DNA of 64,000 nt from Muribaculaceae bacterium (lineage in GTDB: Bacteria; Bacteroidota; Bacteroidia; Bacteroidales; Muribaculaceae). The DNA is taken from positions 62,001-126,000 of the forward strand of contig JAFLUA010000002.1 of the NCBI GenBank assembly GCA_022508985.1, written 5' to 3'. The translations under genes were made by a program, and so were the position numbers. The stretch's first letter is position 1; each line of letters starts with the position of its first letter. This document shows, in pieces, positions 35,274 to 37,663 of the stretch. Under the pieces are notes generated by a model. It made no database searches. It was not told the DNA's origin and worked only from the letters and a program-made list of their open reading frames with translations.

Positions 35274-35780
35274 TTAACGATAGTCTTTGAAGCGTTCTTG
35301 CAATTTTTTGCGTGCGGCAAAGATGCGGCTCTTAACAGTGCCTACCGGCAAGCCCATCTGCTCTGCTATCTCTTCATATTTATATCCGGCTATGTGCATC
35401 GAAAAAGGCTTGCGATATTCTTCGCCAAACTCTTTGATTGCCGCCATGATTTCGGTTGCCGTATAGCTGTCTTCGGGGCTCTCGATGCCGCTATCTTGGC
35501 TTAAGTTAAGCTGATAGAGATTGTCGCTCGTGTCAATCACAGTTGCCGAGCGAACGCCGCGTCGGTAGTTGTTGATGAAGATGTTGCGCATAATAGTGAA
35601 CACCCAGCCCTTAAAGTTTGTACCGGCCTCGTATTTATCTTCATTATCGAGGGCCTTAAGGGTTGTATCCTGCAACAAATCATAGGCGTCGTCGCGGTTG
35701 GAAGTGAGCATGTAAGCAAAATTCAGAAGGTTGCTCTGGAGGCTGAGGAGATTGCTTTGGAATGTAGTGTTCGTTGCCAT
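35274..35780 (-). CDS. ECF-type RNA polymerase sigma factor
   Basis: 168 aa, sigma-70 region 2 and 4 (YEEIAEQMGLPVGTVKSRIFAARKKLQ). Confidence 0.92.
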   Translation of the reverse strand: MATNTTFQSNLLSLQSNLLNFAYMLTSNRDDAYDLLQDTTLKALDNEDKYEAGTNFKGWVFTIMRNIFINNYRRGVRSATVIDTSDNLYQLNLSQDSGIESPEDSYTATEIMAAIKEFGEEYRKPFSMHIAGYKYEEIAEQMGLPVGTVKSRIFAARKKLQERFKDYR

Positions 35781-36088: not shown

Positions 36089-36120
36089 TTTGAAAGAATT
36101 CAAAAAAAAACGTAACTTTG
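36089..36120 (+). promoter_or_regulatory. Canonical Bacteroidetes promoter upstream of structured RNA and XRE-like gene
   Basis: TTTG 36089-36092, exactly 20 nt, TAACTTTG 36113-36120. Confidence 0.8.
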
Positions 36121-36126
36121 CAAAAA

Positions 36127-36334
36127 CATAAAGTATATCAATCGATAATACTCATATCTGAGCTTACAGCTCTTATTCTCCTACTGGAAACCGCCAATAT
36201 TCCAACGACAATGAGAATAAGCAGAGAAGTAGGTTCGGCTCGAATATGAGCTGAATTATTTTGTGCTTTCTTATTGTCACGGCGCTTGGCGGTGCCCCAG
36301 TAGAAGTTGGTACATTTTAATTCAGCTCTTTTGT
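36127..36334 (+). ncRNA. Structured leader RNA or sRNA with two competing folds
   Basis: Rod: CTACTGG/CCAGTAG (36181-36187/36297-36303), ACCGCCAA/TTGGCGGT (36190-36197/36286-36293), GACAATGAGA+AAGCA/TGCTT+TCTTATTGTC (36207-36223/36264-36278), GGTTCGGCTC/GAGCTGAATT (36232-36241/36248-36257). Competing pairings described in findings. Confidence 0.6.
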
Positions 36335-36559
36335 ATGATACATATTGGCAAAATTATCCATGCAGAACTCCTGAGACAGGAGAGGACTCCTACTTGGCTT
36401 GCCAAAAAAATCAATTGCGAACGTCCTAACATCTATTATATCATCAAGCAACCCTCTATTAATACCGAAATGCTTGAACGAATATCTAAAGCCTTGGATA
36501 TTGACTTCTTCAAAATTTATTCCGACCAACTAAACAATGATTCCAACAAAATAACGTAA
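36335..36559 (+). CDS. Small XRE-like helix-turn-helix regulator
   Basis: 74 aa from ATG 36335: MIHIGKIIHAELLRQERTPTWLAKKINCERPNIYYIIKQPSINTEMLERISKALDIDFFKIYSDQ. Confidence 0.8.
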   Translation: MIHIGKIIHAELLRQERTPTWLAKKINCERPNIYYIIKQPSINTEMLERISKALDIDFFKIYSDQLNNDSNKIT

Positions 36560-36667
36560 AATAATTTTACTAATACGTAAAACACACATACTATTAACCA
36601 TATCAAGAAGCAAGGGGAAGCGTCTAAATTTGCGCCACAAAAAAATCATTAACTCAAAACAAAAAAC

Positions 36668-36961
36668 ATGAAAAAATTATTGTTAGCTGCATTTGTTCTT
36701 TTAGGTGGATTGGGCGCTTTCATCACTCCAACATATGCAGAACCAGCACACCAAGTATGCGCCCCTGATAGCCCCTGCCTATACACCGGCTATGCAAAAT
36801 GCGACAATTTCAAGATTTACATCACTGTGAAAATGGATAAAAACGGACAACCAATTGCTTCTTTCAGAGACAACAACAAGGATTATACCGTTTACGTGTT
36901 TATCGACAACAATGGATATTATGTAAATCATGATGGTAGAAAATACTATTTTAACATGTAA
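36668..36961 (+). CDS. Small exported protein, unknown function (paralogue 1)
   Basis: 97 aa, signal peptide, C-terminus YYVNHDGRKYYFNM. Confidence 0.7.
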   Translation: MKKLLLAAFVLLGGLGAFITPTYAEPAHQVCAPDSPCLYTGYAKCDNFKIYITVKMDKNGQPIASFRDNNKDYTVYVFIDNNGYYVNHDGRKYYFNM

Positions 36962-36982
36962 TAACACCAATCAAAAACTGAT

Positions 36983-37315
36983 ATGAAAAAATTTCTTATA
37001 GCCATTGTCTTCGCAATGATGTGCCAACTTTCTTCTTGGGCATACACCTTAAGTTCTGACATGGTTTTTGCTGCCGATGGAGTAACGCTACAAATGAATA
37101 GCAATGGCACATGCAGAATAATATCTCGCGAAACAGGAAATCTCTACGGAACTTATGATATAGATCCAACAAGGCAAGTTGAACCAGGTTGTTCTCATGT
37201 GAAGATTGTTTTCAATTTTAATGGTATCATAACATATGGAACATTCGCATGGCCACTACAAGACAACCTAATATGTTTCTTTGAGAACGTTCTCCTAAAG
37301 AAAGTTGAAAGCTAA
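36983..37315 (+). CDS. Small exported protein, unknown function
   Basis: 110 aa, signal peptide, beta-rich; same operon spacing. Confidence 0.65.
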   Translation: MKKFLIAIVFAMMCQLSSWAYTLSSDMVFAADGVTLQMNSNGTCRIISRETGNLYGTYDIDPTRQVEPGCSHVKIVFNFNGIITYGTFAWPLQDNLICFFENVLLKKVES

Positions 37316-37363
37316 TTTTTGCATCCAAGCTGAATTTTATCTAATTTATAACTAAATACTTTC

Positions 37364-37663
37364 ATGAAAAAGTTTTTTATCATCTCTGCTTTAGCAGCCT
37401 TCCTATTGGTAGGCCCGGCAGTCGTATCAACCTCCATTGTTCCAAGTGCACATGCAATAAGCGTTCGGAATCTTTCTAAAACTGCGTACAATGCAGCAGG
37501 CCAATCAAGAAAGATAACAGTAAACTATGACAGAGAAGGAAATCCTAAAAATGTCAACGGCAAGTTCGATGTTTACTATTTTGGAGGGACTGCCCCTAAT
37601 GGTCAATATTACAGCTACTATTTCAAAGACCAAAATGACGTTATATGGTATTTCAACCTATAA
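37364..37663 (+). CDS. Small exported protein, unknown function (paralogue 2)
   Basis: 99 aa, signal peptide, C-terminus YYFKDQNDVIWYFNL. Confidence 0.7.
   Translation: MKKFFIISALAAFLLVGPAVVSTSIVPSAHAISVRNLSKTAYNAAGQSRKITVNYDREGNPKNVNGKFDVYYFGGTAPNGQYYSYYFKDQNDVIWYFNL

Follow-up and report, generated by a model that had tools for sequence, protein, structure and literature searches.

Within the 64,000-nucleotide stretch of DNA that was analyzed (the window), a candidate structured RNA lies directly upstream of a small gene of the XRE type. This putatively regulated gene (36335..36559, plus strand) encodes a 74-aa helix-turn-helix protein, as judged by its orthologues and by a match to Pfam HTH_26 (E 0.0016) that falls short of the cut-off. 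Three genes for small signal-peptide proteins (97, 110, and 99 aa) follow on the same strand (36668..37663), and the arrangement of an XRE gene followed by secreted proteins of a similar kind recurs in relatives. Just 3′ of the XRE gene is a palindrome, ACGTAAAATAATTTTAC (36554-36570). At L033, a similar site (GCGTATAATGTGTTTAC) likewise follows the XRE gene, and L035 has, by eye, palindromes of this type; the palindrome of the window is a possible XRE operator for the secreted-protein genes. Divergent from the RNA, a gene on the minus strand (35274-35780) encodes an ECF-type sigma factor with Sigma70_r2 and r4_2 domains. By eye, the RNA copy of L284 also stands 5′ of a sigma-factor-like ORF.

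The promoter of the RNA, read directly from the sequence, is of the Bacteroidota type (36089..36120, plus strand) and consists of a −33 element TTTG (36089-36092), a 20-nt spacer, and the −7 element TAACTTTG (36113-36120), from which we infer a transcription start near 36126. All further coordinates of the RNA refer to the plus strand, and the order of its strands from 5′ to 3′ is a, P1, P2, b, d, e, c, P2′, P1′, g, f. Immediately 5′ of strand a, a hairpin GAGCT-tac-AGCTC (36160..36172) is part of the minimum free energy (MFE) fold; close relatives have a similar hairpin at the equivalent place and distant ones have AAGC..GCUU. In fold B, a long rod, P1 (CUACUGG, 36181..36187) pairs with P1′ (36297..36303; 7 bp), P2 (ACCGCCAA, 36190..36197) pairs with P2′ (UUGGCGGU, 36286-36293; 8 bp), the entire strand b with its extension (GACAAUGAGAAUAAGCA, 36207..36223) pairs with positions 36264-36278 of strand c (36263..36278), and strand d (36233..36241), the 5′ half of the apical hairpin, pairs with strand e (36248..36258). 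In fold A, strand a (CTTATTCTC, as RNA CUUAUUCUC; 36172..36180) pairs in 9/9 positions with the core of strand b (GAGAATAAG, as RNA GAGAAUAAG; 36213..36221), and strand e (GAGCTGAATTA, as RNA GAGCUGAAUUA) pairs in 11/11 positions with strand f (TAATTCAGCTC, as RNA UAAUUCAGCUC; 36318-36328). Strand f and the following UUUU (36329-36332) form the 3′ arm (36318..36332) of a terminator-like stem that ends 6 nt 5′ of the ATG. Fold A further contains a short hairpin GGC-[P2′ loop]-GCC (36281..36296), the loop of which is the 3′ strand of P2, and a pairing of c with g that can form in relatives, is weak in the window RNA itself, and is poor in its subgroup. Folds A and B are mutually exclusive, since b takes either a or c and e takes either d or f.

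The segment 36126-36345 has an MFE of −74.2 kcal/mol (z −6.15), a value to which none of 200 dinucleotide shuffles descended (−46.2 ± 4.6 kcal/mol), and its MFE structure is the rod. The promoter, the strand, and the pairing coordinates given by the initial annotation were all found in place. One pairing that it had assigned to fold A, a 14-nt helix (36151-36164/36237-36250), does pair in 13/14 positions if G-U is counted; it is probably a chance pairing because no counterpart was seen in the orthologues that were read. A 12-codon ORF within the window RNA was considered as a leader peptide and rejected, its ATG being absent, by eye, from most relatives.

Relatives of the RNA and the genes that follow them

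A DNA search turned up versions of the RNA, 71-77% identical, in three genomes of the same genus, and a search with the XRE protein led to orthologues at the same places. When the 74-aa protein was used to scan the GTDB genomes, 45 loci were obtained, almost all of them from Bacteroidales, and XRE orthologues of 60-71% identity were present in 27 named GTDB genomes. The DNA 5′ of the XRE starts holds a homologous RNA directly upstream in most close loci and the same layout, strongly diverged, in others. In L040, L058, L060, and L061, diverged structured leaders are followed by an XRE gene and then by large GCKDYDDDI surface lipoproteins that look DUF4988-like by eye. A covariance model (R1) built from the RNAs preceding orthologous small XRE genes matched in 236/397 family-level, 105/295 order-level, and 44/396 phylum-level genomes, the phylum-level search having been run with filters that lose weak matches. 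Some of the model matches lie on the reverse strand because the rod is near-palindromic in shape; they were taken out of the scripted analyses but are still contained in alignment A2 (see below). A model of fold A alone (R2) recovered 38/41 of the loci supplied, most of them diverged. Across Bacteroidota, members of the RNA class are ~165 to 220 nt long, with about 180 nt being typical.

The genome of the window (G000) has three further matches, L157 (C14:2316-2491), L158 (C16:91057-91255), and the weak L159 (C2:13114-13273; E 0.0017), which precede the genes for a secreted 116-aa protein and a 104-aa membrane protein and an unidentified ORF, respectively. Other genomes hold up to 26 copies (G074). 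L220, L221, and L216, from the high-copy genomes G074 and G568, are tandem duplications of leader plus gene, in two-gene units; the duplicates are 1.4 to 1.9 kb apart, and between neighboring leaders P1, P2, and P3 have changed in a compensated manner. Integron-like cassettes had been suggested by positions at contig ends and by close pairs in the high-copy genomes, and were set aside, the contigs showing leader-plus-gene duplications and not arrays of att sites. An exact search for the core pattern found 42 stretches of viral contigs, at least two of which (L232 and L259) are chance matches in coding sequence; in most, the RNA is complete and genes of the lipoprotein or restriction type come after it. 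In these Bacteroidales-type contigs (L230-L271), the RNA was seen 5′ of small lipoproteins and of HSDR_N, Mrr, and GmrSD-like genes, and it may mark the cargo-gene region of phages or prophages. A plasmid search and a search of annotated phages gave one unannotated match each.

The longest ORF adjoining the RNA is co-directional in 90/98 copies, and in 4 of the other 8 the XRE gene is in place; the next gene lies on the strand of the RNA in at least 94/98. In 44/98 copies, the ATG sits right where the terminator stem ends. The gene kinds seen 3′ of the RNA are XRE regulators (with secreted proteins behind them), genes for lipoproteins, for BspA-type repeats, and for BACON proteins, and restriction-modification genes (EcoRI-type and N6 methylases, HSDR_N, Mrr, and GmrSD); these are listed as occurrences, and no common function is claimed for them. 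In class-level relatives (L224-L229, L274-L279, and L293), the RNA begins shortly after a TAnnTTTG-like box, and a gene for a SusC/RagA receptor follows in most. As to a link with a single metabolite, which would be the mark of a riboswitch, the genes after the RNA are diverse (XRE, secreted proteins, SusC/RagA, and restriction genes). The window RNA had been described as the leader of an XRE-like gene. Indeed, homologous RNAs precede the XRE orthologues, but the class is not XRE specific, and an XRE-specific autoregulation was rejected as the general function because many copies stand before other genes.

Covariation, promoters, and terminators in the relatives

Both folds were evaluated on alignment A1, which comprises 30 sequences aligned with MAFFT and was fitted to neither fold. 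On A1, 95.9% of the cells are paired in fold B, with double (compensatory) changes in 18/37 pairs; in fold A, 92.8% are paired, with double changes in 18/31 pairs. For both folds, 0/500 shuffles reached the observed value of any measure, and pairing fell to 33 to 51% when the partner was shifted by 1 to 3 columns. Hence, the two alternative folds proposed for the window are both conserved and covarying in homologous upstream regions. The rod has double changes in 35/37 pairs in A2 (a count that includes 14 reverse-strand rows) and in 35/37 in the phylum-level A4, and fold A has them in 27/31 pairs in A5, but these sets were fitted to the fold counted and their counts therefore lean toward that fold, whereas A1 does not. 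For the rod on A4, RNAalifold gave 28/30 such pairs.

Among the helices of the rod, P1 has double changes in 6/7 pairs in A1 and in 7/7 in A2 and A4. P2 is nearly invariant among close relatives and is swapped with full compensation in distant ones (CCUGAGAA/UUCUCAGG, UCUGGAAA/UUUCCAGA, CGUGGAAA/UUUCCACG, and ACUGGUA/UACCAGU). Such wholesale replacement between subgroups is not what would be expected of a simple conserved pocket for a small molecule. The apical helix d-e is paired in 94.6% of the cells, with 4/10 pairs doubly changed in A1 and 10/10 in A2 and A4. Two helices of fold A, those of 9 and 11 bp, also proved to be real. In a-b, 96.3% of the cells are paired and 4/9 pairs are doubly changed in A1. 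Both pairings of strand b, with a and with c, are backed by compensatory changes. The phylum-level set supports a-b more weakly, and an alignment-free duplex test was weak (43/98 and 8/26 copies), making a-b the least certain helix outside the XRE-type copies. In e-f, 92.8% of the cells are paired and 7/12 pairs are doubly changed in A1, and the alignment-free test gave a P value of ≤0.05 versus shuffles in 88/98 and 25/26 copies (window z, −4.7). The GG/CC hairpin around P2′ has double changes in 2/3 pairs in A1 and in 3/3 in A5. G-U pairs are common inside the helices.

A conserved core lies near P2, with AAAA and AAUUU on one strand and GG and CC on the other. Of the core residues outside helices, G265 and C282 (A2 columns) are invariant in 76 nonredundant copies, A49 is conserved in 99%, and A47 in 91%, figures to be read with the search model favoring that core and with the helix between the core residues being replaced among subgroups. 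The outer G and C of the 36281..36296 hairpin are invariant in 76 nonredundant copies.

Promoters of the sigma-ABfr type (TTG-N18-23-TAnnTTTG) are enriched in the 200 nt upstream of the relatives, with 39/97 on the coding strand compared to 5/97 on the other strand and 1.1 expected from shuffles, which agrees with the promoter-driven leader postulated for the window. A U-tract (at least 6 T in 8) is present at the 3′ end of 76/98 copies compared to 14% at control sites. It is scarcer where the ATG abuts the stem (27/44) than elsewhere (49/54), and in the window and its nearest relatives it is TTTTG or weaker, with the ATG a few nucleotides past the stem. Since TTTT comes right after the e-f stem, and since most relatives have a full U-tract there, it appears to be primarily a terminator stem. 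The initial annotation had assigned to it the occlusion of translation initiation. In the family as a whole, it would chiefly be an intrinsic terminator; in the subgroup of the window, the weak U-tract and the stem ending 6 nt from the ATG make occlusion of the start codon plausible. Compared to what defines an attenuator, a terminator stem and a U-tract stand before the coding region across the copies, though degraded in the subgroup of the window, and a mutually exclusive antiterminator that shares a strand with the terminator is conserved (e with d or f, b with a or c).

A proposed switch between two folds and its alternatives

The computations show that the copies are homologous, that they run in the direction of the next gene, that promoters are enriched, that both folds covary, and that a terminator signature is present. 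Our reading of the RNA, to which we give a probability of about three in four, is that of a Bacteroidota-wide, bistable, cis-acting leader that would set expression of the next gene by the choice of fold, with the rod as the ON state and the two-hairpin form as the OFF state. In this model, a would pair with b first in the nascent RNA (transient hairpin 1). During undisturbed synthesis, c, P2′, and P1′ would then capture b, P2, and P1; the rod would form, e would be held in the apical hairpin, and f would be left free, so that RNA polymerase would read through. If the rod were blocked or hairpin 1 stabilized, e and f would form the intrinsic terminator, topped by c-g and the GG/CC hairpin. In the subgroup of the window, the OFF fold would probably act largely by hiding the start codon.

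This order of pairing during transcription is suggested by stepwise partition functions, in which a-b reaches 0.84 to 0.96 in the nascent RNA and is displaced by c, followed by P2 at 0.94 to 0.99; at full length, f is unpaired with e in 3/3 members tested. Blocking the 5′ strand of P1/P2 in silico led to e-f pairing in one of the three members only. The direction of the switch (rod ON) we infer from thermodynamics only: on average, the rod gains ~9 kcal/mol over the constrained fold A, a value in which a P2-P2′ kissing contact in fold A is left uncounted. With such a difference, undisturbed folding would read through, and the OFF state would need an active trigger that blocks the rod. The most likely sensing site is the conserved core around P2 (AAAA/AAUUU and GG/CC), and the leader may be of the riboswitch, protein-responsive, or antisense-responsive kind. 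More speculatively, it is imaginable that the RNA is a new phylum-wide class of sensor, riboswitch-like or protein-responsive, whose double three-strand exchange would control, on chromosomes and mobile elements as well as in phages, the genes for surface, secreted, and transporter proteins and for restriction, perhaps triggered by a shared signal of the envelope or of invasion; we regard this wider reading as possible but tentative.

A different function would be that of a trans-acting small RNA, a terminated product of ~180 to 210 nt that regulates other mRNAs and whose position before a gene is incidental or autoregulatory. The RNA has its own promoter and terminator and several paralogues per genome, as in the FopS family of Bacteroides thetaiotaomicron (PMC11697453). 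However, the next gene is nearly always co-directional and close, often with its ATG at the end of the terminator stem (44/98); conservation resides in the paired strands of both alternative folds and not in a single-stranded seed; and the paralogues share no unpaired stretch of seed length. A role in trans is therefore unlikely. We also consider it improbable that the leader is a self-recognizing or antisense-responsive attenuator after the model of plasmid copy-number leaders, in which P2/P2′ (and P1/P1′) would pair with another copy or an antisense transcript and RNA dosage or antisense RNA would set the fold. In fold A, P2 and P2′ would be accessible as loops, and the complete but compensated change of P1, P2, and P3 between subgroups, and even between neighboring paralogues (L221), fits orthogonal pairing specificities. 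Yet ordinary helices are equally expected to change in this manner, P2 is invariant among close XRE-type copies, and unsystematic inspection brought no conserved antisense promoter to notice.

The initial annotation had named a 6S-like RNA as the main competitor. In RNAs of this sort, a long rod passes for an open promoter and is bound by RNA polymerase. The window RNA is similar to 6S RNA (RF00013) and 6S-Flavo (RF01685) in its rod shape, its length of ~180 nt, and its own promoter. In contrast to 6S RNA, it belongs to a class with many diverged paralogues per genome, always 5′ of a gene, and with an alternative fold coupled to a terminator, and a 6S function would leave the alternative fold and the co-directional gene unexplained. 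Furthermore, RF00013 had no match over the cut-off in G000 and 20 relatives, with a control positive in 5/14 genomes, and 6S was absent among the cmscan matches of the window region; RF01685 did not match either, but neither did any control, so that this result is uninformative alone. The 6S explanation can practically be dismissed. Just as hard to credit is a mobile or recombination element (an attC-like site, a MITE, or a phage element) in which the folded DNA strand and not the RNA is selected: copies do occur in viral contigs, beside serine recombinases (L145 and L147), and near contig ends in high-copy genomes, but G-U pairs are common in the helices, the U-tract and upstream promoter are strand specific, and the place before the orthologous XRE gene is kept over long divergence.

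To our knowledge, few cis-acting RNA switches have been described in Bacteroidota. The RNA recurs across this phylum in up to 26 copies per genome, and covariation fixes its two alternative structures ahead of experiment. It precedes genes with which the cell meets its surroundings, such as those for outer-membrane transporters, surface repeats, lipoproteins, and restriction systems, and the trigger of the proposed bistable leader, once identified, would open up a regulon that is now without a known regulator. With two covarying folds, the RNA would be a clean model for co-transcriptional RNA switching.

Comparison with known RNAs

Searching the window and 60 further loci with the 4227 families of Rfam 15 gave only tRNA and 5S rRNA at the gathering score, and the best sub-threshold match over the window RNA was a microRNA model (E 1.1). 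Membership in a known Rfam family was thus rejected, the sub-threshold microRNA matches in L185 falling outside the RNA, and the earlier view that it belongs to no known riboswitch class still holds.

No description of this RNA was found in the literature searched, although a set of 3161 candidate structured RNAs of human microbiomes might contain fragments of it (Fremin and Bhatt 2021; PMC8040213). In that study, HTH-XRE is among the two most frequent neighbors (100 candidates) and several Bacteroidetes candidates are terminator-like palindromes, and some of the candidates may be pieces of our RNA; compared by description, the main-text passages present no two-fold class of this kind. Rfp18 of Flavobacterium psychrophilum was set aside by its description as a trans-acting sRNA (PMC9723704). 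Closer at first sight are FopS and GibS of Bacteroides, multicopy, structured RNAs of Bacteroidales with sigma-ABfr promoters (PMC11697453). The RNA described here has these traits in common with them, but FopS of B. thetaiotaomicron is ~65 to 70 nt long, acts in trans through a shared 5′ seed, and is located in intergenic, antisense, or 3′ UTR positions (PMC11697453), whereas our RNA is ~180 nt long and stands directly before genes. It is these differences in length and position that set it apart from the FopS/GibS group.

The closest resemblance is to terminator-type riboswitch platforms and attenuators, with which the RNA shares its position as a leader, a strand common to the antiterminator and a terminator with a U-tract, and a putative conserved unpaired core. 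It differs from attenuators generally in that it has no Rfam match, the antiterminator lies within a rod of ~130 nt and comes after a second three-strand exchange (a-b versus b-c), and the core helix is replaced wholesale between subgroups. In sum, the mechanism that we propose is a variant of the known terminator/antiterminator kind of leader, and the RNA class itself appears to be new.
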